NCBI GenBank assembly: GCA_035536915.1
Contig: DATLNE010000001.1
Location: forward strand, 1 to 64,000
Length of the DNA stretch: 64,000 nt
DNA from: Acidimicrobiales bacterium
Lineage (GTDB): Bacteria; Actinomycetota; Acidimicrobiia; Acidimicrobiales; JAHWLA01
Reading direction: 5' to 3'
Of this stretch, positions 3,984-17,147 are shown one piece after another. How positions within the stretch are numbered: position 1 is the stretch's first letter; every line of letters starts with the position of its first letter. The position numbers and the translations under genes were made by a program. The notes beneath the pieces are model-generated. The model saw only the letters and a program-made list of their open reading frames with translations. It was not told the DNA's origin and did not search any database.

Positions 3984-4571
3984 AAGAGCCTTGAGCATGC
4001 AGGTAGCCGCTGGCCGGTGAGTGCACGGCTCGGTCGATGGGGCCGGACCAGGCGGCGGCCGGCGTCGCGCCCCGCTCGTGGATGCTGCTACTACCACCAC
4101 GAACCGCCCAAGCCGCCACCATCGCCGAGTAGCGAACCGGCGATCACGCGGTGCGCCGACCGTCCCATAACCACGACGCCGGCGAGCTGCGAGAGCATCC
4201 TCGATGTGCCGTTCAGGGACGCTACATATCATTCGCTCGATATCGCGGTTGCCCGCCCGTCCCTGACGCTCTGGTCGGCGCGTAGCCGAGCGGGACGGCG
4301 CCACCTATCGCTCGGGGCGCAGCGGGGCTGACCCCACCGCCGCCTACGCCACACCGTGTGTCGTCGAACCGCCGAGGAAAGAAGGCGTCCCCCGTGCTCA
4401 TGGCTGGGGACTGCGCCGCCCGCGTTCCCCCGAGTCGGCTTCCGCGTGCCCGACCCCCGGCTACCTGGACATTTGCTCCTCGGCCACTCGACAAGCGTCT
4501 GGCGACTTGCGTGGTCTACCGATTGTTCCCCCGGGTTTCGACGAGCGGGACCCGCGATGAAGGAGGACACG
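3984..4571. other. Gene-free stretch upstream of the integrase
   Basis: About 590 bases without a convincing gene on either strand; open frames here have coding-unlike composition. It contains one imperfect inverted repeat with 9-base arms TCAGGGACG (4213-4221) and CGTCCCTGA (4258-4266), separated by an AT-richer stretch (CATATCATTCGCTCGATATC). This could be a binding site for the integrase or for a regulator, or simply element debris. No excisionase gene is visible. Confidence 0.4.
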
Positions 4572-5765
4572 ATGAAGGGGCACGTCAAGAAGCGAGGGGA
4601 CCGCTACTACGCAGTGATCTACGAAGGTCGAGACCCCGTGACCGGCAAGGAGCGCCGCAGCTGGCACCCGGCAGGCACCGTCCGGGCCGAGGCCGAGCGC
4701 CTCGCCGCCAAGCTCGCCGCGACCGAGACGAGCCGGGTCGACTCGGTGCGGTCGCTGACCTTCGGCGCGTACCTGACCAGCCAGTGGCTACCAGCAAAGA
4801 AACTGCACCTGGCCATCAGCACTTACCACGGCTACGAACGAAACGTACAAATCCACATCCTGCCTGTGTTGGGCAGGGTTGGCATCCGGCGCTTGCGCTA
4901 CCAGCAGATCGAGGCGCTCTACGACACGCTGCTCCACCCCACCGAGGGCAAGGGCCTATCACCGAAGACCGTCTATGAGGTCCATCTCATCATCAAGGGT
5001 GCGCTCGCTGACGCTCTGCGGCGCGGCCTGGTATCCCGCAACGTCGCCGTGGTCGCGCGAGCCCCCAAACAGCGGTCGCTCCAGCGGATCGAGGGCGCCT
5101 CGCTCACCGAGGACGAGCTGCGCCAGCTCATGCGTAGCGCGGTCGGCCACCGGCTCTTCCCGCTCTACTGGTTGACGGCAATGACCGGGATGCGCCGCAA
5201 CGAGGTACTCGGCCTCAAGTGGCCCGACATCGACTTCACCAAGCGGTGTCTGCACCTCAACAGGGGGCTCGTCGCCGTCGGCTACGAAATCCACCAGACA
5301 CGCGGCAAGACCAAGAACGCTCGCCGCGCCATCGCCCTCGACGACACCACCCTCACCATCCTCGCCGGCTGGCGGGACTTCCAGGCCGCCGAGTTCGCCG
5401 CGGTCGGCATCACCAACGACGACCGATGGGTTTTCACCGACGGCGCCGGCAAGCCCGTACATCCCCACTCGGTCTACGAGGCATTCCGCCGAATCGTTCA
5501 CAACGCCGGCGTGTCGACCATCCGCTTTCATGATCTCCGGCACACCCACGGCAGCCTGCTCATCCAGGACGGGATCCCCGTGAAGGTCGTCAGCGAACGT
5601 CTCGGCCAGGCCAACATCGGGTTCACGATGCAGACCTACCAGCACGTCCTGCCCGGTATGCAGGCCGACGCAGCCCGATCGGCCGAGCGGCTCGCCAAGC
5701 CCACTCCCCCGACCGCGAGAAGGACGGGGGAACGTCGGGGGAACGGCCGGAGGAAGAGCGCCTGA
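4572..5765 (+). CDS. Tyrosine site-specific recombinase (phage-type integrase)
   Basis: A 397-residue integrase. Residues 1-50 form an AP2-like arm-binding region (KKRGDRYYAVIYEG), 60-155 the SAM-like core-binding domain, and 180-375 the catalytic domain. Catalytic residues visible are Arg208 (TGMRRNE), His320-x-x-Arg323 (HDLRH) and nucleophile Tyr356 (TYQHV). The usual second His (LGH) is Gln346 in LGQAN, a known but minority variant. The ATG at 4572 has GGAGG six bases upstream; ATG 4557 lacks a site. The gene ends 66 bases from the 3' end of tRNA-fMet, the classic arrangement of an element integrated at a tRNA gene, with the element lying to the left. Confidence 0.92.
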   Translation: MKGHVKKRGDRYYAVIYEGRDPVTGKERRSWHPAGTVRAEAERLAAKLAATETSRVDSVRSLTFGAYLTSQWLPAKKLHLAISTYHGYERNVQIHILPVLGRVGIRRLRYQQIEALYDTLLHPTEGKGLSPKTVYEVHLIIKGALADALRRGLVSRNVAVVARAPKQRSLQRIEGASLTEDELRQLMRSAVGHRLFPLYWLTAMTGMRRNEVLGLKWPDIDFTKRCLHLNRGLVAVGYEIHQTRGKTKNARRAIALDDTTLTILAGWRDFQAAEFAAVGITNDDRWVFTDGAGKPVHPHSVYEAFRRIVHNAGVSTIRFHDLRHTHGSLLIQDGIPVKVVSERLGQANIGFTMQTYQHVLPGMQADAARSAERLAKPTPPTARRTGERRGNGRRKSA

Positions 5766-5817: not shown

Positions 5818-5831
5818 CTCACTGCTTTTCG

Positions 5832-5905
<74 letters not shown>

Positions 5906-5999: not shown

Positions 6000-7163
6000 A
6001 TGATCGAACATGTGTACGGTCGGAGCGTGATCGGAGCACTGCGGAAAGCCATCGAGGACCTGGAGGTGCCGCTCGACGGCGACGCCTTGGCGGAAGTCCT
6101 GAAGGTGGTCGACCTGCTGAACGCCAAGGTGGCGGCGGCGATCGGTGCCTTCGACGCCGAGGCCCTGTGGGAGCTCGACGGAGCCACGTCGATGACGGCG
6201 TGGCTGCGACATCACGCACGCATGACGGCGAGCACTGCCAAGTCGACGGCTTCGACCGCGAAGAAGCTGCGCGGCTTGCCGCTGACCGAGGACTACTGGC
6301 TGTCCGGAAGGCTGTCCGGCGGCCAGGTGCAGGCCATCGTGCGCAACGCCACGGCGGAGTTCCCCGAGCACGAGGCGGCGGTAGTGCCCGCGTTGGTCGA
6401 CCTGTCGGTGGCCGGCACGGCCTTGGCCATGCAGCAGTGGAAGGCCATGCTCGACATCGAGCCCACGTTCCAACGAGGCGTCCACCTGTCCCAGACGCTG
6501 GAGGGCCAGTGGGATCTGACCGGCTCGCTCGACCCGCTGGGCGGCGAGACGGTGGCCACTGCGTTGCGCCTGGCCATGGTCGACGAGCCCGAGGTGCCGC
6601 CTGCCCGCAGGCGGGCCGACGCGCTGATCGACGTGTGCAGGTTCTTCCTCGACCACCATGCAGGTAGCTTGGGTGGACGGCACCGCCCGCACCTCAACGT
6701 GGTGGTCGACTACGAAGCCTTGCGCGCCGGCCGCGGCGGCAGCTTCGTGGGCGGTGGGCTGATCGACGGTGCGTCGATGCAGGCGCTGGCCTGCGACGCG
6801 GCCATTCACCGAGTCGTGACCGACGGACGCAGCACGATCCTCGACTACGGCACCTCGACGCGCACGATCCCGGCGCCCTTGTGGTCGGCGCTGGTGCTGC
6901 GCGACCGGCACTGCCGCTTCGATGGATGCGACCGGCCGTCGCACTGGTGCGAGGCCCATCACGTGGTCCCGTGGCAAAACGGCGGGAGGACGAGCCTCGC
7001 CAACCTGGTCCTCAAGTGCAGCCGGCACCACCACTTGGGGCACCAACCGGGCTGGTCCGAGAAGCTCCAGCCCGACGGCACGCTGGTCATCACCGATCCA
7101 AGGGGCCGCACCCGCACGACCCGACCACCGGGCTCGCTCAGCGACCTGCAGCGCGCGAGTTGA
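6000..7163 (+). CDS. DUF222 / HNH endonuclease-domain protein (13E12 repeat family)
   Basis: A 387-residue protein. Residues 10-270 form a helical DUF222 domain (MTAWLRHHARM, LSGGQVQAIVRNA) and the C-terminus an HNH nuclease fold: CRFDGCDRP, then EAHHVVPWQNGG with His320-His321, and a final CSRHHHLGH. The Cys pairs and His residues needed for zinc and catalysis are present. Such proteins are multicopy and often mobile in actinobacteria (the mycobacterial REP13E12 group); their target is not established. It lies just beyond the tRNA-fMet gene, outside the inferred integrated element. Confidence 0.88.
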   Translation: MIEHVYGRSVIGALRKAIEDLEVPLDGDALAEVLKVVDLLNAKVAAAIGAFDAEALWELDGATSMTAWLRHHARMTASTAKSTASTAKKLRGLPLTEDYWLSGRLSGGQVQAIVRNATAEFPEHEAAVVPALVDLSVAGTALAMQQWKAMLDIEPTFQRGVHLSQTLEGQWDLTGSLDPLGGETVATALRLAMVDEPEVPPARRRADALIDVCRFFLDHHAGSLGGRHRPHLNVVVDYEALRAGRGGSFVGGGLIDGASMQALACDAAIHRVVTDGRSTILDYGTSTRTIPAPLWSALVLRDRHCRFDGCDRPSHWCEAHHVVPWQNGGRTSLANLVLKCSRHHHLGHQPGWSEKLQPDGTLVITDPRGRTRTTRPPGSLSDLQRAS

Positions 7164-7210: not shown

Positions 7211-10105
7211 CTACGCGGTGCCGCCGGCTGACCGGTTGGCTTCGTTGGCCCGGCGCACGAGCTCGCCGACCTCGTTGACCCGGCGTTGGTACTCGGCCAG
7301 GTCGCCGCGCCGCAGCGCCTCTTGGGCAGCGTCGTACGCTGTCTGAGCCTGGGCCAGCAGCGCCTGCACGTCGGCTGAAGGCGGTTGCCCGCCGGGCTGC
7401 GTCGGCGTGGTGGGCGGGGCGGGCGCGCCTTGCGGCCCCCGTTCCAGGGTGGCGGGCGCCGAGCCGAAGATCTTGGTCAGCGCCTGCTGCAGGGTGGTGC
7501 CCATCTCGGCCCGCTCGCCGAACACCACAATGACCCGCTTGAGCTCGGGCACTGGGTTGTTCTGCGACTGCACGTACAGGGGCCGTACGTAGACAATCGA
7601 GTTCTCGATGGGCAGCACCACCAGGTTCCCTTGCAACGCCTGCGAGCCCTGCTGGTTCAACAGGGTTATCTCGCTGGTGATCGTGGTGTTGGCCTTGATG
7701 CGGGCATCGACCAAAGCGGGCCCGTCGACCTGGCGGCCACGGGGCATCTCGAACACCTCAAGCTTCCCGTACGACCCCGGGTCGCTCTTGGCCGTCATGA
7801 AGGCGGTCAGGTTCTGCTGCTTGTCGGCCTGCGAGGCGGCCACGAAGGGTCGCAGGATCAGGAACGACTCACGGGGGTCGCCGGGCAGCCGCAGCAACAG
7901 GTACGTCGGGTCCATGCGCTTGGTCTTGCGCCGCACCAGGTTGCCCTCGGCGTCGAGCACCTGGACCTCCTGGGCGGGCGCCGACGGGTTGCCCGAGCCG
8001 GGGTCCTGCGACACGTTCCAGGCGTCGGTGGCCCGGTAGAACTCCACCGGATCGGTGATGTGATAGCGCCCGTACATGTTCGTCTGCACCCGGAAGATGT
8101 CCTCGGCGTAGCGCAGGTGCTCGACCATCTCGGGGTCCATGGCCGAGAACGGCGTGAACAGCTTGGGGAAGGCCTTGGCGTAGGCCTGCACGATCCGGTC
8201 ATCGGGGTCGACGATGTAGAACGTCATCGTGCCGTCGTAGGCATCGGTGACGACCTTGACCGAGTTGCGCACGTAGTTGAACGAGGTGTTGAGCCCGCTG
8301 CCCGGCGGCAGCTCCTCCACGTTGGCGTGCTGTGCGTACGGGTACCGCGACGTTGTCGTGTAGGCGTCTTGCACCCACTGGATGCGGCCCTTGACAATCA
8401 CGGGATAGGGGTCGGCGTCGTAGCGGAGGAACGGCGCCGCCTGCTTCACCCGGCTCTCGATGTCGCGGTAGAAGACAGCTCGGGACTGCGGCGTCACCTG
8501 GTCGGAGATCAACACGTTCTGGTCGCCGAAGCGAATGGCGAACGCCAGCCGCCGCAGGAACGACCCCATGGGCACGCCGCCCTTGCCTGCGTACGTGCTC
8601 TCCTCGGTCTCGCCCGACTCCGTCTGGAAGTCGATCTCCTTCTGCTTGCTGTTGACGATGGCGTAGCTGCTCAGGTTTTCGCCGAAGTAGATGCGCGGCT
8701 CGGTGATGGCCGGTGTGCCCGCCGGTGGCACGTCCTTGACCAGGAACTCAGGCTTGCCGTCACTGCTCACCGCGTTGGCGGGCGACACCACGGCGCCGTA
8801 GCCGTGGGTGTACTGCAACCGCTGGTTCACCCACGACTGCGACGGCAGGTCGCCGCTGTTGAGCTCACGAGCCGACACGATCGTCTGCAACAGCTCGCCG
8901 CCGATGGTGTAGCGGTCGATGTCGACGTCGTTGAACCGGTAGTACTGCCGGATCTCCTGCAGCCGCTGGTAGGTGCCCTTGACGTAGGTGGGGTCCCACA
9001 GCCGGACGTTGCGCACCGTGGTGGCGTTCTCGCTCAGGTCCTGGGCGGTGAGGCTCTCGTCGTAGTCGAAGGAACGCTCCTGCACGTCGCTGATGTTCAT
9101 CGCCACGCGGGTCGCCTTGATGTTGCGGTCGATGTACTTGCTCTCCCGCTGGAGCTCGGACGGCTCCACGCGGAACTTCTGGATGAAGGCGGGGTAGGCG
9201 GCGCCCACGATCACCGAGATGAACGCCCACAGGCCGACGCCGATGACGGGCAGCACCCAGCCCTGCCAGCGGATGTTGAGCAGGAACAGCACGCACGCCG
9301 CCAACGAGATGACCACCAGCAGTTGCAGGGCGGGCAACTGGGCGTTCACGTCGGTGTAGGTGGCGCCGTGCACCGCGCCCCGGGTGGAAAAGTTCAGCTC
9401 GTAGCGCGACAGGTAGTAGCCCGCCGCCTTGAGCAGGGCGAGCACGGCCAGCAGCACCGAGATGTGCGCCTTCACGTGGCGGGTGACCCGCGGGGCGGGC
9501 GGCTGCACCCGGATGCCGCCGTTGAGGTAGTGGGCCACCAGCGAGACCACGGCCACGATGAACACGGCGAGGAAGAGCCAGTCGACGACGAACGACATGA
9601 ACGGCAGTCGGAACACGTAAAAGCTGACGTCTTCGCCGAACTGAGGGTCGTTCACGCCGAAGTCAACGCTGTTGCGGAACAACAGCCAGTTGTTCCACTG
9701 GCTCGCCGTGTTGCCCCCCGCCATCAGGGCGAACAGGGCGGCGATGACGAGGCGGACCTTGCCGGCGTGGCGGCCTACGGCGTCGCGGTAACGCTGCACC
9801 AGCTCGTCGTCGGGGCCGGGCGTGCGGAACTTGGGCGCCAGCCGGTCGGCGATGAGCAGGTTGAGGTACAGCAGGACGAAGAAGCCCGCCGTGAAGCCCG
9901 CGACGAGCGCCAGCTTGGTGCCCAGCACCCCCTGCCACACGTCGCCGAAGCCCAGTTCGTCGAACCACAAGTACGTCGTGTAGAAGCCCGCGATCCCCCG
10001 CAGCGACGTGAGGCCGAAGAACAGCACGACACCCGCGGCGATCAGGATCGTGCGGCCGCGGTTGCCGCGACGAGCCGGCCGGGGGAGGTCGGTGGGAGCA
10101 CGCAT
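7211..10105 (-). CDS. UPF0182 family large membrane protein
   Basis: A 964-residue protein with about seven transmembrane spans in residues 20-320 and a large extracytoplasmic region to about 880, ending in a Gln/Ala-rich helical tail (ALLAQAQTAYDAAQEALRRG). Family hallmarks include YLWFDELGF, FYVFRLPF and the long domain with VYYRDIESR-like and GRYHITDPVEFY segments. UPF0182/COG1615 proteins are widespread in actinobacteria and their function is not defined. In mycobacteria the gene adjoins a PDZ/Lon-type protease; here the equivalent protease lies 5.8 kb upstream in the same orientation, with three other envelope genes between. Confidence 0.93.
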   Translation of the reverse strand: MRAPTDLPRPARRGNRGRTILIAAGVVLFFGLTSLRGIAGFYTTYLWFDELGFGDVWQGVLGTKLALVAGFTAGFFVLLYLNLLIADRLAPKFRTPGPDDELVQRYRDAVGRHAGKVRLVIAALFALMAGGNTASQWNNWLLFRNSVDFGVNDPQFGEDVSFYVFRLPFMSFVVDWLFLAVFIVAVVSLVAHYLNGGIRVQPPAPRVTRHVKAHISVLLAVLALLKAAGYYLSRYELNFSTRGAVHGATYTDVNAQLPALQLLVVISLAACVLFLLNIRWQGWVLPVIGVGLWAFISVIVGAAYPAFIQKFRVEPSELQRESKYIDRNIKATRVAMNISDVQERSFDYDESLTAQDLSENATTVRNVRLWDPTYVKGTYQRLQEIRQYYRFNDVDIDRYTIGGELLQTIVSARELNSGDLPSQSWVNQRLQYTHGYGAVVSPANAVSSDGKPEFLVKDVPPAGTPAITEPRIYFGENLSSYAIVNSKQKEIDFQTESGETEESTYAGKGGVPMGSFLRRLAFAIRFGDQNVLISDQVTPQSRAVFYRDIESRVKQAAPFLRYDADPYPVIVKGRIQWVQDAYTTTSRYPYAQHANVEELPPGSGLNTSFNYVRNSVKVVTDAYDGTMTFYIVDPDDRIVQAYAKAFPKLFTPFSAMDPEMVEHLRYAEDIFRVQTNMYGRYHITDPVEFYRATDAWNVSQDPGSGNPSAPAQEVQVLDAEGNLVRRKTKRMDPTYLLLRLPGDPRESFLILRPFVAASQADKQQNLTAFMTAKSDPGSYGKLEVFEMPRGRQVDGPALVDARIKANTTITSEITLLNQQGSQALQGNLVVLPIENSIVYVRPLYVQSQNNPVPELKRVIVVFGERAEMGTTLQQALTKIFGSAPATLERGPQGAPAPPTTPTQPGGQPPSADVQALLAQAQTAYDAAQEALRRGDLAEYQRRVNEVGELVRRANEANRSAGGTA

Positions 10106-10114
10106 GGGCGGAGC

Positions 10115-12103
10115 CTAGGGCGCGGCAGGGACGAGCAAGCAGCGGCACCCGGCGTGCGCGGGCGGATGCAGCCTGCCGGTGGGGTACTCCTCGCCGCGAG
10201 GGGTGGGGCCGGCCAGGGCGTTGTCGTCGCAGTCGGGGCAGGGGCCGCCTACGTCGTCGACGATCCAGCGCAGCGGCGCCCCTTCGGGGGTGGCGCTGAA
10301 CGTGCCCCGGGAGAAGGCGGCGATCACGTGGTCGGTGGCCAGTTGCTCGATGCGCTTGCCCTTGGTCTCGCGGTAGGCGGCGCCGATGCGCTCGACCACC
10401 AACGACGCCTCTTCTTCGGCGCCTTCCTCCAGGCCTCGCTCGAGCCGCTTGCGCAGGGGGCCGACGAGGTCGGCGGCCAGGCTTTCGGCCAGGTCGTCGA
10501 CGTCGACGGCCGTGTCGCCGCCGTCGACGAAGGACACCCCTGCCGTTGACGCCTCGGCCAGCAGTTCGGCAGCCACGGCCCGATAGCGGGCGGGGTGGTC
10601 GTCCGCGCTGGGCAGGACGGCATCCGCCGTCGGGCGGCCGCGGTGGCTGCGGAACCGGTCGAGCACGTCGTTCTGCTCGTCCTGCAAGGCCCGCTTCAGC
10701 CGGCGCGAGAGGCGGTGCTCGATGTCTTCCACCGCGCCGTCACGCCGCTGGAGCAGGGCTTCGTCCTCGTCGGAGAGAGGTGCTTCTTCGGCCGGCTCCG
10801 ATGCAGGCGCTGCGGCGGCGGGTTCGGGCGCGGCGTCGCCCTCGGCGTCAGCGTCGGCCCCGCTGTCGAGCACCTCGCGGGCGCGGGCCACGGCTTGGGC
10901 GCGGTCGGCACGTATGCGGGCGAACAGGTCGTCGACGGCGTCGGGGGCTTCGTCGCCTGTCGTGGGCACTTCTTCGGCGTTGCCGCTCGACGCTTCCTCG
11001 GGCAGCGGCGGGTCGGCTGGGCGCGAGGCTGCCTTCGCTGCTTCTTCTTCGGGCAGCAGCGGGTCGACGGGACGCGGAGGCTCCTCGACTGCCCGCGGCG
11101 GCTTGGGCTCGGGCTCGGGCGGCGCCTCCTGGCTCGGCTCCGGCTTGATGATGCGCACGCCTTCGCCTGCCATGGGTGGGGCGACGGGCGTGAACGCCGC
11201 GGCCCGCTCCGCCTCGGCTGCCTCTTCGTCCTTGGGGCGGCGCAGGATGCGCACCGACGACCGACGCCGTTCCTCGGGCTCGGGCTCAGGTTCCGGTGCA
11301 GGTGCAGGTGCGGGCTCCGGCTCCGGCTCCGGCTCGGCCGCAGGTTCGGCGGCGGGCTCTGCGACCTCGTCAAGCTGCTCCTCGGGCACCCGGCGTGCGG
11401 CCGCCTCCGCTGCCGACCGCGCCTCGGCTTCGGCCTTGACCAGTTCCTCGGTGACCTCGTCGAGTGTGGTGCGCACCATGCGGTACGCCTCCAGCAGCCG
11501 GTCGCGCCCGGCCCGCAACTGCTCGACCTGGGTGTGCGCCAGCTTGCGCCGCCGGGCCAGGTCACCGAGCACCTTGGCCCGGCGGCCTTCGGCCTCTTCG
11601 ACCATGGCGCGGGCCTTGCCCTCCACGTCCTCCAGCAGGCGTTCGGCCTCCTGCCGCGCCCGCCCGAGGGCAGCCTCGGCGTCGGCTTCGGCCGCCGTGC
11701 GGATCTCGGCGGCGGCCGCTTCGGCCTCTTCGGTCTCTCGGGCCAACAAGCCTTCGGCCTCGGCCCGCATCCGGCCCGCCTCTTCGTAGGCCTCCCGCAG
11801 CAGCTGGGCCACGTTGTCTTCGGCCTTGCCCCGGATGTCGGCCGCTGCGTCCTGGGCCGAGCGCAGGATGCGGGCCGTCTCCTCACCGAGCGCGCTGGTC
11901 AGCGTGTCGACGTCCATCTGGGGGTGCGCCGCCCGTTCCTCGGCCTCGGCCAAGCGGCGGCGCAGCGCCTCCGCTTCGTCCTGCGCGGCGCGCAGCTGCT
12001 CGGCCACGCGGGCCAGGAACCTCTTGACCTCGGTGGGGTCGAGGCCGCGGAACGACGTCGGGAACGCGTGCGCGGCCACCTCGTCCGGCGACAACTCGGG
12101 CAT
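10115..12103 (-). CDS. DivIVA-like coiled-coil protein with a phage-minor-head-like C-terminal Cys/His motif
   Basis: A 662-residue protein. Residues 1-60 resemble the DivIVA/Wag31 membrane-curvature domain (FPTSFRGLDPTEVKRFL), and 35-250 are a long Ala/Glu/Arg coiled coil. Residues 255-480 are an acidic Pro/Glu-rich linker, and 490-610 a second helical domain. The last 45 residues carry C622-P-D-C625, an HPPAH segment and C653-R-C655. That final pattern (CxxC, then HPxxHxxCRC) is what I know from Mu gpF / SPP1 gp7 minor head proteins; I know of no DivIVA protein with it. Likely membrane-associated scaffold; its ATG is 38 bases after the FecR-like gene stop. Confidence 0.85.
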   Translation of the reverse strand: MPELSPDEVAAHAFPTSFRGLDPTEVKRFLARVAEQLRAAQDEAEALRRRLAEAEERAAHPQMDVDTLTSALGEETARILRSAQDAAADIRGKAEDNVAQLLREAYEEAGRMRAEAEGLLARETEEAEAAAAEIRTAAEADAEAALGRARQEAERLLEDVEGKARAMVEEAEGRRAKVLGDLARRRKLAHTQVEQLRAGRDRLLEAYRMVRTTLDEVTEELVKAEAEARSAAEAAARRVPEEQLDEVAEPAAEPAAEPEPEPEPAPAPAPEPEPEPEERRRSSVRILRRPKDEEAAEAERAAAFTPVAPPMAGEGVRIIKPEPSQEAPPEPEPKPPRAVEEPPRPVDPLLPEEEAAKAASRPADPPLPEEASSGNAEEVPTTGDEAPDAVDDLFARIRADRAQAVARAREVLDSGADADAEGDAAPEPAAAAPASEPAEEAPLSDEDEALLQRRDGAVEDIEHRLSRRLKRALQDEQNDVLDRFRSHRGRPTADAVLPSADDHPARYRAVAAELLAEASTAGVSFVDGGDTAVDVDDLAESLAADLVGPLRKRLERGLEEGAEEEASLVVERIGAAYRETKGKRIEQLATDHVIAAFSRGTFSATPEGAPLRWIVDDVGGPCPDCDDNALAGPTPRGEEYPTGRLHPPAHAGCRCLLVPAAP

Positions 12104-12141: not shown

Positions 12142-13323
12142 CTACGGCAGCGGGTCGAGCAGGCCGTTCAAGGTGTCGACGACGGGGGCCACCAGCGGGT
12201 CGATCGGCGTCTGGGTTGTCACCGGCGGGACGGGCTCGTCGGGGTCGTCGGGCTGCGTCGTCGGGGTGGTGCCGCCGTTGCGAGGCCGGGTCGTGGTCGT
12301 CGTCGACCCGCCGGAGCCGCCAGGACCGGGCCGCGTCGGCGTCGGCGTGGTCGGGGAAGGTCCGGCCGCCACCGTCGCAGGGCCGGAAAAGCCCAGTGGC
12401 GCCCGTCCGATGGCGAGGTCGAGGTCACGTACCAACGCAGGGGCGTCGGCTACTGCCTGGTCGAGGGCCACGAGCCCCCATGCCGCACCTTCGTCGCGGA
12501 ACCGGAAGACCGACTGCCACCGTTCGCCGAACGACGACTGCTTGCCTGCCACGGTGATCACGGCGCCGACCAGCGTCTCGCCGGGCGGGCGGGCGCCGTC
12601 GAGCAACGAGGCCGCGAACGACGGCTCGTTGTCGAGCGCGGGCAGCACCTGCTTGTAGAACCCGGGGGTGCGGCCTTCGCCGGCGCGCACGTTGGGGCCG
12701 AAGGCGCGGCTGCGTGCCTCCAGTTCGCGGCCGAAGGCCATGGCGGCGCCGAGGTGGCGGCGGTCCCACTCGTCGGTGTCGTTGTAGGCCACGGGCGCCG
12801 CCGAGGTGGGCAGCACGCCGATCGCAGGGATCGATGCCTGGCGCAAGGCGGGCACGGTGAAGGCCGGGCCGCCGGAGCGGAGCACGACGTGGCCGCGGTA
12901 GGCGGCGGCGGAGACGGCCAGCGACCGCGACACTCGCGCCGCGCCCGTGACTTCCACTTCGGAGCCCGCCGTGCGCACCACGACGGGGGCGCCTTCGGTG
13001 GCGACCAACAGGTCGCCGGTCATCAGGTTGGGGCTGGCCGCCAGCTCGAACTCGGTACAGGAGTCGGCCGCGCAGCGCAGGTCGTAGCTGCGGCCGTCGC
13101 CGGACACGACCCGAGCCGTGCCCTGCTCCAGCTTCACCCGGTCGCCGAAGTGGAGCCGTTGCGAGCGCTCCACGACCTTGGCCGCCTTGCCCGCCACGCT
13201 GACCAGCGCCCGTCCTTCGACGTCGAGGCGCGCCTCACCGGAGCGCAGCTTGTCGCGGCTGCACCCAGCGGCGCCGACGGCCAGGAGGCCGGCGACCAAG
13301 ACCATCGAAAGCGAACGCTTCAT
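12142..13323 (-). CDS. FecR-like lipoprotein with a Pro/Thr-rich C-terminus
   Basis: A 393-residue lipoprotein: the signal MKRSLSMVLVAGLLAVGAAGC places the lipidated Cys at residue 21. Residues 35-160 read as a FecR-type beta domain (RLHFGDRVKLEQGTARVVSG, two Cys in LRCAADSC). A helical domain covers 190-320, and the tail is an extracytoplasmic Thr/Pro linker. Its start overlaps the sensor-kinase stop by four bases (ATGA), so the two are translationally coupled and probably function together, for instance as sensor accessory and kinase. FecR domains usually sense or transmit envelope signals; a direct role here is inference. Confidence 0.75.
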   Translation of the reverse strand: MKRSLSMVLVAGLLAVGAAGCSRDKLRSGEARLDVEGRALVSVAGKAAKVVERSQRLHFGDRVKLEQGTARVVSGDGRSYDLRCAADSCTEFELAASPNLMTGDLLVATEGAPVVVRTAGSEVEVTGAARVSRSLAVSAAAYRGHVVLRSGGPAFTVPALRQASIPAIGVLPTSAAPVAYNDTDEWDRRHLGAAMAFGRELEARSRAFGPNVRAGEGRTPGFYKQVLPALDNEPSFAASLLDGARPPGETLVGAVITVAGKQSSFGERWQSVFRFRDEGAAWGLVALDQAVADAPALVRDLDLAIGRAPLGFSGPATVAAGPSPTTPTPTRPGPGGSGGSTTTTTRPRNGGTTPTTQPDDPDEPVPPVTTQTPIDPLVAPVVDTLNGLLDPLP

Positions 13324-15875
13324 CGCCTTCCTTGTATCGGCGTAGCGGGCAGGAAGATGGAGAAACGGGAGCCTTTGCCCGGTTCGGACAAAAGCGACAC
13401 CGAGCCGCCGTGGGCCTCGGCCACCCGCTGCACGAGCGAGAGTCCGAGCCCCAAGCCGCCGAAGCTCCGGGTGTCAGAGGTATCACCTTGCACGAAGTCA
13501 GCGAACGCCAGTTCCTGCTCCTGCGGCGTCATCCCCTTGCCTCGGTCGACCACGCTTACCTCGAGGCCGCCGTCGACGGGCGCAGCGGTCACCGTGATCT
13601 TGCCCCCGTCGCCCGAGAACTTCACGGCGTTGTCGACCAGCTCGTCGAGGCTCAGGGTCAGCCACCGCCGGTCGACCTGCACCTTGGGCACGCCGCGGCT
13701 CACCCGGCGCACGATCGACCGGGTGCCGTTAACCCGTTCGTCCCACCGCTTCACCACTTCGTCGACCAGGGCTCGCACCTCGACCACCTCGGGGCGGAGG
13801 ATGACGCGACCGGCGCCCGCCGAGGCGAAGAACTCCAGCATCTGCACGATGCGGAACAACGCCTTGGACTGCTTGAGGATCTCGCCGTGCCACTGGCGGG
13901 CCCGCTCGGGCGGCACGTCCTTGCGGGTAAGCAGGTCGGCGTAGCCCATGATCCCGGTCAGCGGGGTGCGCAACTCGTGGCCGATGCGCGAGAGAAACTC
14001 CGTCTTCATCTGCTCGACCTCGCGCTCGCGGCGCAGGTCGCGCAGCACGAACACCGCACCGGCCAGCTCCCCCGCCAAGTCGCGCAGCGGACCGCCCAGG
14101 ACCGACACGGGGATGCGGCTGCCGTCCTGGTGGTCGACCCAGCCTTCGGCGTGCCAGCGGGTGGGCGACAGCCGGGTGAGGCGGCCGCCGATGTCGGTGC
14201 CGTCGTCGGCGCTGAGGCTGACCACTTCGTCGGCCCGTTGCTCACGCGCCGAGGCGGCGCCGATGCCGAGCAACTCCTCAGCGGCCTGGTTGAAGTCGGT
14301 GATGCGGCCGGTGGCGTCGACGGCGATGAGCGCCTCGCCCATGCCCGCCACGACCGCTTCCAAGCGGCTGCGCAGGCGGCTTTCCGCTTCGGTCTTCTCC
14401 TGGATCGACAAGGCCATCGAGTCGAAGGCGCTGCCCAACACGCCGACCTCGTCGTCGCTGGCGATCTCGGCCCGCACGTTGAGCTCGCCGCGCTGGATGC
14501 CCTCGGCCACTCGGGTCAGGCGGCGCAGGCCTGCGCCGATGCGCTCGCCCACGATCGACGCCAGCAGCAGGGCGAGCAGGGTGCCACCCAGGGCGATGAC
14601 GAACAGGGTGCGGAACAAGCGATCGCGCGAGTCGCCCACGATGGCGGTCGGGGTGGAAGCGGCCATGGCGAGGATGGGGCGCTCGTCCTCCATGCGCACC
14701 GGGCGGATGGCCACGAAACGGGTAGGCGTGATGGTCGACTCGGCCCGGCCGGTGTCGATCACCGTCTTGGCCAACGACAGCACGGTGCCCGCAGGCGGGC
14801 GGGGGCCGAACGACGCCACGAAGCGGTCACGATCCGCCAAGGCCAGCGAGAGCGACTCGTCGTCGCTGGAGCGCACGTTGAGGTAGTCGTCGTTGAGCCG
14901 GGAGACGGCGATGGCCACGCCGAGCAGGACGGGCGAGGCCCCTTGCTGCTGCATGCGCGCCGGTGAGGCGGCCACCGCGAAGGCCTGGCCCGCCAGCACG
15001 TCGACCGAGTTGCGGGCCGACAGCGTCTGGATCGACTGGCGCACGATCTCCGAGCCGGCCAAGGCCACGGCTGTGGCGTTGTCGATGCCGGTGACGCCGA
15101 GGACCTCGCCGGTCGGGGCCACAAAGGCCAGGGGCGTGCCGAGGAAGTAGGTCGACGACAACGCCGCCAGTTCGGGGTTGAGGTTGCCCTCGCCCGGGCC
15201 GGTGAAGTCGAGGATGGCCTGGGCCCGCTGGCTGCCGAGGTTGGCGGCCACGATCTTGGCTTCGGCCAGGCGGGCCGCCCCTTCCCGGCGGGCGAAGGTC
15301 GCTTCCGAGCGGGCACGGGCGTCGAGGCGGGTGAGCTCCTGGTCCTCCACGGTGTTGGCCAGGACTGCCGACAGCGCCACCGACAGCACGAGCACGACCA
15401 GCAGGAGGGCGCCCGCCGCGCTGGCCGCCACCCGGGCGGCGATGGACCGGCGGCTGGCGGTGAGCACCGACGAGCCGATGCCCGCGGCACCGATGACGAG
15501 CAAGGCGGCGGGGACGTTGCTGGTCGTGGTCGTGGCCGCCGCCACGGTGGCTGCCGCGGTGCCGGCCATGCCCACCCACATGAGGCGGCGCGATGTGCGC
15601 CCGCCGCACCACGGGACGGAGCCGAACAACAAGGCGGCCACGCCCGCGCCGCGCAGGCTGAGCAGGAGGGGGTCGTCGCCGCTTTCGATGAGGCTGGAGC
15701 CGTGGAAGAAGGCGGCGGCGGAGAGGGAGAGGAAGCCGACGGCCAACAGGGCACGGGAGCCGAGCGGGCGCGCCACCAGCTCCCCGCGCAGGACGACGAG
15801 GGCCAGCCCCGCTGCCGAGGCGAGGAACAGCACGAATTCGGCGGCGAACTGGAACTGGGCGGCCGAAGCGGACAT
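13320..15875 (-). CDS. Membrane sensor histidine kinase (HAMP-PAS-HisKA-HATPase), orphan
   Basis: An 851-residue kinase. Six N-terminal hydrophobic segments are followed by an extracytoplasmic sensor region (about 185-415), another span, HAMP (about 440-490), a PAS domain (about 500-615) and HisKA with phospho-acceptor His633 in IGHELRTPL. The ATPase follows with N box ELVDNAVKF, G1 VVDRGKGM and G2 GGLGLGLSL. All catalytic boxes are intact. No response-regulator gene is adjacent; the coupled downstream gene is the FecR-like lipoprotein. It probably monitors an envelope signal together with that lipoprotein; the partner regulator must be elsewhere. Confidence 0.93.
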   Translation of the reverse strand: MSASAAQFQFAAEFVLFLASAAGLALVVLRGELVARPLGSRALLAVGFLSLSAAAFFHGSSLIESGDDPLLLSLRGAGVAALLFGSVPWCGGRTSRRLMWVGMAGTAAATVAAATTTTSNVPAALLVIGAAGIGSSVLTASRRSIAARVAASAAGALLLVVLVLSVALSAVLANTVEDQELTRLDARARSEATFARREGAARLAEAKIVAANLGSQRAQAILDFTGPGEGNLNPELAALSSTYFLGTPLAFVAPTGEVLGVTGIDNATAVALAGSEIVRQSIQTLSARNSVDVLAGQAFAVAASPARMQQQGASPVLLGVAIAVSRLNDDYLNVRSSDDESLSLALADRDRFVASFGPRPPAGTVLSLAKTVIDTGRAESTITPTRFVAIRPVRMEDERPILAMAASTPTAIVGDSRDRLFRTLFVIALGGTLLALLLASIVGERIGAGLRRLTRVAEGIQRGELNVRAEIASDDEVGVLGSAFDSMALSIQEKTEAESRLRSRLEAVVAGMGEALIAVDATGRITDFNQAAEELLGIGAASAREQRADEVVSLSADDGTDIGGRLTRLSPTRWHAEGWVDHQDGSRIPVSVLGGPLRDLAGELAGAVFVLRDLRREREVEQMKTEFLSRIGHELRTPLTGIMGYADLLTRKDVPPERARQWHGEILKQSKALFRIVQMLEFFASAGAGRVILRPEVVEVRALVDEVVKRWDERVNGTRSIVRRVSRGVPKVQVDRRWLTLSLDELVDNAVKFSGDGGKITVTAAPVDGGLEVSVVDRGKGMTPQEQELAFADFVQGDTSDTRSFGGLGLGLSLVQRVAEAHGGSVSLLSEPGKGSRFSIFLPATPIQGRR

Positions 15876-15920: not shown

Positions 15921-17015
15921 TCACCGGCTCCCCCCTGCTGTGGCCGCCGTGATGTCGCCGCCGAGACGGCCCAACGCCTGGATGGCCTCCTCCAAGGTGG
16001 CCACCTTCACGATCTGCAGCTTGCTGCCCGCGTGCGACAGCGCCACCTCGTACTCGCCCGGCGGCACGAGGAAGACGTCTGCTCCTTGGTTGCGGACGGC
16101 CGCCGTCTTCTGGGCGACCCCGCCGACTTCGCCGACTTCGCCGTTCATGTCGATGGTGCCGGTGACCGCCACCTTCTTGCCCCCGGTGAGCTCGCCCGCC
16201 GAGAGCTGCTCGATGAGGCCGAGGGCGAAGGCCAGGCCCGCCGAGGGGCCGCCGATGCGACCGCTGTCGATGTTCACCTCGAAGGGCTTGTCGAAGCGGC
16301 GGTCCTTGGTCTGCATGACCACGCCGAGGAAGGCGTTGCCCTCTCGCTCGCCCAGGGTAACCTCTTCGATGCGGGTGGTGCCGTTGCTGTCGGTCACCTC
16401 GATGCGGGCGACTTCGCCGGGCCGGTGAGAGCGGATGCGGTCGACGGCGGCCTGCGACACGGTCGTCGGAACGCCGTCGACGGCGGTGATGGCGTCGCCC
16501 GGGGCGAGGCGCCCGGAGGCCGGTGAGCCGTCGCTGACCTGGACGACGAGGGCGCCCTTGCCGGTCTCGGGCACGTTGTGGCCGAGCTGGCGCAGGGCGA
16601 CGACGATGGCCGTCTCCTTGGAGTCGTCCATGAGCTGGAGGTTCTGCTGGCGGTACTGCGCCGGCGGGGTGCGGCCCAGGATCTGCTCTTCGGGCACGAC
16701 GTCGACCTCGTCGTCGAGCCAGCCCTGCACGGCGCCCAGCGCCTTGACCCGCTGGAGGGAGACGGTGGCCAGGTAGACCTCGCCGCGGCTCGGGTAGAGG
16801 CGACCCTCGGGCGCCCGGATGAGCTCGTCGACCTCACGGGCGTCGCCGGGTGCGATGGCGTAGTACGGGAGATCGGTGTTGAGAGAGACGGCGAGGGTGA
16901 GAAGGCCGATGACCACGTGCGGCACCCACCAGAAGTGCAGCCACAGGGGGCGTTCGGGCGCCGGTTGGAGGCCGCTCCCCGATGGCACACCCGTCCCGGA
17001 GTCGGGCACTACCAT
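15921..17015 (-). CDS. YlbL-type membrane protease (PDZ plus Lon-like S16 domain)
   Basis: A 364-residue protein from the ATG at 17015, with one N-terminal span (PHVVIGLLTLAVSL). A PDZ domain follows (PASGRLAPGDAITAVDGVP), then a C-terminal Lon-type catalytic domain with Ser258 in GGPSAGLAFAL and Lys303 in QKTAAV, 45 residues apart as in Lon. Upstream in-frame starts (GTG 17033, ATG 17108) would add residues that do not look conserved. Known relatives are YlbL and mycobacterial Rv3194c; they degrade or process membrane proteins. It transcribes divergently from the proline-rich membrane protein gene. Confidence 0.88.
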   Translation of the reverse strand: MVVPDSGTGVPSGSGLQPAPERPLWLHFWWVPHVVIGLLTLAVSLNTDLPYYAIAPGDAREVDELIRAPEGRLYPSRGEVYLATVSLQRVKALGAVQGWLDDEVDVVPEEQILGRTPPAQYRQQNLQLMDDSKETAIVVALRQLGHNVPETGKGALVVQVSDGSPASGRLAPGDAITAVDGVPTTVSQAAVDRIRSHRPGEVARIEVTDSNGTTRIEEVTLGEREGNAFLGVVMQTKDRRFDKPFEVNIDSGRIGGPSAGLAFALGLIEQLSAGELTGGKKVAVTGTIDMNGEVGEVGGVAQKTAAVRNQGADVFLVPPGEYEVALSHAGSKLQIVKVATLEEAIQALGRLGGDITAATAGGSR

Positions 17016-17147
17016 CGGGTCGATCGTGTCCACGTCCGTGACTTGCCTCTTCGGGATGCCGGCGGGTGGGCCGGGCGGCCGCAATAAGTGTGCGGGACAG
17101 CCTGCCATGGAACCGGCCGCTATCGGCGCCGTCCTGGTCGGCGCGCC

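Follow-up and report, generated by a model that had tools for sequence, protein, structure and literature searches.

A DivIVA-type protein with a C-terminal domain related to phage portal/MuF proteins, encoded beside UPF0182 in Acidimicrobiales

The locus described here raises the question of what a bacterial gene is doing that begins like a DivIVA polar scaffold and ends like a phage head protein. It lies on the minus strand of a stretch of 64,000 nucleotides from an Acidimicrobiales bacterium, referred to below as the window. A preliminary description, made from the sequence alone, had recorded a DivIVA-like N-terminus, a coiled coil, an acidic linker and a Cys/His end, all of which were upheld by the reading frame, profile searches, a structural model and the sequence itself; it was made without a view of the status of the gene as a core gene across its order, or of the portal-type kinship of its tail. 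The gene, its parts and its neighbours are as follows.

10115..12103, minus strand: DivIVA-MuF fusion gene, ATG start, 662 aa plus stop; DivIVA over the Pfam/NCBIfam cut-offs, tail related to phage portal/MuF proteins
11927..12103, minus strand: DivIVA N-terminal domain, residues 1-59 (PF05103 4.2e-14, TIGR03544 2.1e-9; helix at 23-59 in the model)
11396..11884, minus strand: helix of the coiled coil, residues 74-236, which includes the conserved stretch DLARRRKLAHTQVEQLRAGR (AlphaFold pLDDT ~90)
10772..11395, minus strand: disordered acidic Pro/Glu/Ala linker, residues 237-444 (pLDDT <50 over most of it)
10865..10939, minus strand: conserved helix within the linker, with V..LFAR(L/I)RA at residues 389-413, which may serve as a docking motif (conservation and AlphaFold)
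10118..10771, minus strand: MuF-type phage-head domain, residues 445-662, 218 aa (AlphaFold, Foldseek, hhalign, PHROG 2662)
10139..10240, minus strand: motif C622xxC625 ... H646PPAH650 ... C653RC655, the MuF end (sequence, conservation, chance estimate)
7211..10105, minus strand: UPF0182 membrane protein (PF03699 1.7e-277), next gene in the run after a 9-bp gap, the probable functional partner
12142..13323, minus strand: FecR-like lipoprotein encoded upstream in the run, found in some lineages only
13320..15875, minus strand: HAMP-PAS histidine kinase (Pfam HisKA, HATPase_c, PAS, HAMP), overlapping the FecR-like gene by 4 bp
15921..17108, minus strand: YlbL-type PDZ-Lon membrane protease (Pfam PDZ_2 4e-8, Lon_C 1.6e-7)

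Membership of the DivIVA domain family was met against both Pfam PF05103 (E 4e-14, 53.1 bits, cut-off 28) and TIGR03544 (36.9 bits, cut-off 22). The translated reading frame of 662 residues carries FPTSFRGLDPTEVKRFL at its N-terminus, and the long coiled coil called for after a DivIVA N-domain was present in the AlphaFold model as a continuous helix at residues 74-236. The score against the Wag31 equivalog NF050102 was only 26.4 bits, with a cut-off of 260, and the protein is not filed as Wag31. A profile search of the contigs of the source genome returned three DivIVA matches over the cut-off, and the canonical divIVA gene, of 225 aa, lies separately in the ftsQ-ftsZ-sepF cluster; the fusion is therefore an additional, specialised paralogue and not the main DivIVA. 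It shares the N-terminal domain, coiled coil and acidic linker of DivIVA/Wag31 proteins (PF05103, TIGR03544), but is about three times the length of the canonical DivIVA of the same genome, carries the MuF domain in addition, and is encoded with UPF0182 rather than in the ftsZ-sepF cluster. Two adjoining further DivIVA-like genes, of which one passes the Pfam cut-off and the other matches weakly, were observed elsewhere in this genome (G000 contig C14, 77488-78413, minus strand).

The full-length AlphaFold model, built on 42 orthologues, predicts an ordered scaffold, a disordered tether and an ordered head, in the order DivIVA part (1-59), coiled coil (74-236), disorder, helix (389-413), disorder, and compact helical domain (445-662). 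The linker (residues 236-455) is 19% Pro and 19% Glu, with a net charge of -33. The helix within it was modelled at pLDDT 85-88 amid the disorder, and its F394 is conserved in 98% of the 42 orthologues; it is likely to be a docking motif, for which there are no binding data. In the orthologue alignment (n=42) residues 181-200 of the coiled coil were 75% conserved, and the most conserved region of the whole protein was its final 40 residues (75-82%).

The tail is a helical domain of 218 aa ending in CPDC...HPPAH.GCRC, and when residues 452-662 were modelled alone by AlphaFold the result was of high quality (pLDDT 96.9, pTM 0.92). For a single sequence the support for kinship with MuF proteins is modest, while at the level of the family it is strong. 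Against PF04233 (Phage_Mu_F) the tail from the window scored 14 bits, short of the curated cut-off of 29.6; matches below that cut-off were obtained for 27 of 59 orthologous tails (best 6e-6), and the best score in the family, 28.4 bits, was also under it. Since the tail and its orthologues miss the curated cut-off, it is called a diverged, distant relative of MuF and not a Pfam member. The SPP1 gp7 model TIGR01641 gave E 0.007 for the window tail and matched 25 of the 59 orthologues (best 3.9e-6). The PHROG portal family 2662 was matched much more firmly, at E 7.7e-9 to 1.1e-8 by the window tail and by 55 of the 59 orthologous tails (best 4e-15), and the tail most resembles portal proteins with a C-terminal MuF-type region. 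An hhalign comparison with eight phage MuF proteins from IMG/VR gave 99.4% and E 2e-21 over 128 columns; the phage contigs were chosen by motif patterns, so the share of this match due to the motif is not independent, whereas the share due to the helices is. Foldseek against BFVD returned 39 matches at E<=1e-3, of which 17 were unnamed and 22 carried a protein name. Nineteen of the latter were portal, minor-capsid, minor structural, head-morphogenesis or capsid-maturation proteins, and the remaining three were two proteins called uncharacterized and a 1069-aa phage protein whose name refers to a zeta-toxin domain. The similarity to phage proteins spans about 130-150 residues, helices included, together with the predicted fold, and it is very likely that the tail and the phage MuF proteins share both homology (hhalign, PHROG 2662) and a fold (Foldseek), the latter as predicted by a model.

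Two other searches added less. Sequence and fold searches of the PDB with the tail returned nothing significant, and no solved MuF relative was found there; matches to ZorA and ribosomal S19 were set aside as weak helical matches. A phage gene look-up with the window tail alone gave no match. With the family consensus it led to portal, MuF and capsid-maturation genes and to four hypothetical genes, the matches covering only 18-32 residues of the end motif.

The end of the protein meets the pattern CxxC...PPxHxxCRC of MuF domains, with C622, C625, H646-PPA-H650, C653 and C655 in place. A motif of the form C..C...P..H...C.C at a protein end occurred once among the 336 window ORFs of >=100 aa and was absent from 856 ORFs of control loci. 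Shuffling the last 60 residues 200,000 times produced it in 6 cases, and this rarity indicates more than chance. All four Cys were kept in 128 of 166 distinct tails, and the third and fourth in about 96%, while one of the first two was missing in 29 and the entire Cys end in 6, with the helices and the operon with UPF0182 retained; losses of this kind with the operon intact mean that the Cys site is not essential everywhere. Six individual orthologues (L057, L058, L061, L063, L199 and L200) stop before the Cys/His module but retain their helices and have UPF0182 as neighbour. A sister group shows CX4C spacing and mostly CTC as its last pair, and in the most diverged members Cys persists longer than His. 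This would fit a metal site of mainly Cys ligands, a tentative idea, as metal binding is inferred and there are no metal data.

The core proposal of the preliminary description, a polar-growth scaffold fused to a domesticated phage-head domain, was thus borne out, by the DivIVA cut-offs at one end and by profile and fold at the other. It had named a fold or profile comparison of the tail and the state of the Cys/His residues in orthologues as the means of checking it; neither the former (PHROG 2662, TIGR01641, PF04233 below cut-off, hhalign, Foldseek) nor the latter (four Cys in 128 of 166 tails) refuted it. Its suggestions of metal binding, a cargo module and a polar scaffold remain inferences, without metal, binding or localisation data.

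The fusion is a long-kept, normal core gene across the order. A tail profile matched 159 of 198 genomes of the order, and 127 of the 153 of good quality; in the other 39 of the 198 the profile search found no tail. The 80 named loci kept from GTDB genomes belong to Acidimicrobiia or to loosely labelled actinobacterial MAGs, with one exception (L154), titled Acidobacteria, which has the same gene order. In a sample of the phylum 56 of 396 genomes matched, some of them from further orders of the class and some from different classes, and among the 27 loci fetched from outside the order UPF0182 was downstream in all and a recognisable DivIVA N-terminus was on the same ORF in most. DivIVA N-terminus and tail were found on one ORF at 148 of 197 loci, the remainder being partly contig or locus ends.

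In a tree of 31 phage sequences and 52 cellular tails, a branch supported at SH-aLRT 97 has all of the cellular tails to one side. The tree rests on few columns and on a phage set selected by motif; it makes a single origin of the cellular tails, as a lineage apart from the phages, likely, and does not prove a direction. Transfer from phage to cell is inferred. A prophage remnant was considered and rejected on the grounds of the wide spread of the tail within the order and beyond it, and of the fixed cellular synteny, and a profile search of the contigs found no PF04233 match over the cut-off anywhere in the source genome, which also counts against it. Nor is the gene encoded among phage head genes, its neighbourhood being fixed and cellular. 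The sole PF04233 match over the cut-off within the order (L262, G016 contig C61) was set aside as a separate phage-like protein and not an orthologue; it is a long phage-like MuF protein that runs well past the MuF end, and is unrelated to the fusion gene.

The gene order in the window, all on the minus strand, is ylbL, histidine kinase, FecR-like gene, divIVA-muF, UPF0182, with gaps of 38 bp and 9 bp flanking the fusion gene. UPF0182 was directly downstream on the same strand in all 146 loci tested (median gap about 28 bp), and orthologous loci usually have YlbL on the upstream side, the kinase/FecR pair being inserted in some lineages only. As to the neighbours claimed earlier, UPF0182 is certain (E 2e-277), while the "FecR-like" protein has no Pfam family match and its label is only a resemblance; the envelope function proposed from them is strengthened by the synteny. 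In 32 sampled actinobacterial loci picked around UPF0182, YlbL or the kinase, with or without FecR, adjoins UPF0182 where a neighbour was recognised, and the tail is absent from all 32. At one locus from another actinobacterial family (L247, 561-1023, minus strand) an ORF of 154 aa that combines a DivIVA domain with a coiled coil and lacks the MuF tail lies directly upstream of UPF0182. Conceivably this is a precursor state, in which a DivIVA gene came to stand beside UPF0182 first and the phage domain was added later, but it is a single case and the evidence is thin. Gene neighbourhood is in any event not proof of a physical interaction with UPF0182.

What the protein does can be approached from these data. 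The domain identities, the ancient conservation and the fixed gene order are shown; the localisation, the docking role, the partner and any metal in the Cys site are inferred. The reading preferred here, which stands roughly as much chance of being wrong as of being right, is that of a second DivIVA scaffold at the poles or septa bearing a tethered, formerly phage docking module, probably for UPF0182. The N-terminus and coiled coil would oligomerise on strongly curved membrane at the poles or septum, as inferred from the DivIVA family, and the flexible acidic linker of about 200 residues would hold out the C-terminal MuF domain. A tailed phage would have supplied that domain on a single occasion, and the cell would have retained it as a compact bundle of helices, Cys-rich at its end, which would now most likely serve as an adaptor for protein docking and bring an envelope complex together at the pole or septum. 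The likeliest partner would be the co-encoded membrane protein UPF0182, with the YlbL protease in the same pathway. Phage MuF proteins attach to the portal ring; in phage SPP1, gp7 is bound to the portal and contributes to the onset of infection (PMC6316719), the function of the MuF domain in phages being otherwise largely unknown (PMC5576092). YlbL of Bacillus subtilis acts on, or helps to clear, a cell-division inhibitor (PMC6051672). The tail has a median net charge of -10 in the order and -4 outside it and is acidic in most orthologues, which makes non-specific DNA binding less likely. A bolder version, which can be offered only as a possibility, is that an early actinobacterial lineage domesticated, on a single occasion, a portal/minor-head domain of a tailed phage and made it the functional head of a DivIVA scaffold, where it still docks in phage-like manner onto an oligomeric UPF0182 membrane assembly and organises that assembly at the pole or septum. 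If so, parts of the phage head vertex would have found a use in the cell, much as the capsid shell has in encapsulins.

Of the alternatives, a structural cap survives best and may yet be correct. Here the helical bundle, with its metal- or disulfide-held end, would stabilise or oligomerise the scaffold without any specific partner, in keeping with the very compact model (pLDDT 97) and with the erosion of Cys positions in several lineages while the helices stay. Against it, the conservation of the last 40 residues (75-82%) goes beyond the need of a plain cap, and the 200-residue tether before the tail suggests reach to a partner. A tether between pole and chromosome is unlikely. In that case the MuF domain would keep DNA binding of the SPP1 gp7 type and the DivIVA part would anchor the nucleoid at the membrane, as for RacA or Wag31-ParB; a paper listed among the references of PMC5576092 calls SPP1 gp7 a DNA-binding protein in its title, and DivIVA proteins do serve as chromosome anchors, but the tail is acidic in most orthologues and the fixed partner gene encodes a membrane protein rather than a chromosome gene. 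That the tail is no MuF homologue at all, and that an unrelated Cys/His knuckle reached a similar motif by convergence, draws on the low PF04233 score of the window tail (14 bits, cut-off 29.6); it is very improbable in view of the similarity over about 130-150 residues including the helices (PHROG, hhalign), and of the match of the predicted fold to BFVD entries whose names are those of phage head proteins. An anti-phage decoy, in which the portal-like domain would sit at the pole, capture head parts of infecting phages and so disrupt the assembly of virions, has the relationship to portal/MuF proteins in its favour and can be all but dismissed, the gene being order-wide with fixed neighbours, unlike defence genes, and PADLOC having found no meaningful match for the fusion protein (a weak JetC match covered only the coiled coil).

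Within the open-access literature searched, the architecture appears to be new. The tail shares with Mu gpF, SPP1 gp7 (PF04233, TIGR01641) and the PHROG 2662 portals a helical domain ending W...CxxC...PPxHxxCRC, but it belongs to a cellular core gene without phage neighbours, and it has other residues where the phage helix commonly has a Thr-Glu pair. MuF polymorphic toxins (PMC5576092) likewise carry the MuF domain in a fusion protein, but there it is N-terminal to the toxin and on a prophage, whereas in the fusion it forms the C-terminus and neither toxin nor prophage is involved; only 7 residues follow the last Cys, leaving no C-terminal toxin domain. FilP, Scy, GpsB and SepIVA (PMC9858780, PMC11571769) resemble the fusion in their DivIVA-like N-terminus or similarity, coiled coil, and polar or septal work, and none of them is known to contain a phage-type globular domain; a 2023 survey of DivIVA-related scaffolds (cited with PMC9858780, PMC11571769) mentions neither phage nor fusion. 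The statement in the preliminary description that no protein of this design had been described held within the open-access literature searched, in which the DivIVA plus MuF architecture was not found, although an uncommented domain-database listing may exist.

Phage capsid and tail parts have become cellular machines before, as in encapsulins and contractile injection systems. To our knowledge there is no cellular co-option of a portal-associated MuF domain. The long-kept fusion in a large actinobacterial group suggests that bacteria turned a part of a virus into their own cell architecture. With MuF fused to a scaffold of known type in a conserved cellular gene, the role of MuF becomes testable. 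UPF0182 is a widespread membrane family without known function, and the Acidimicrobiia are large and poorly studied; the fusion gene provides a handle on the former and hints at a component of the cell pole or division architecture that is specific to the latter lineage.

Three further genes of the window were noted at lower coordinates. A phage-type tyrosine integrase gene (4356-5765, plus strand) adjoins a tRNA-Met gene (5831-5905, minus strand), as at the end of an integrated element, and beside these two lies a gene for a DUF222 and HNH endonuclease protein (6000-7163, plus strand), of a common actinobacterial repeat family.
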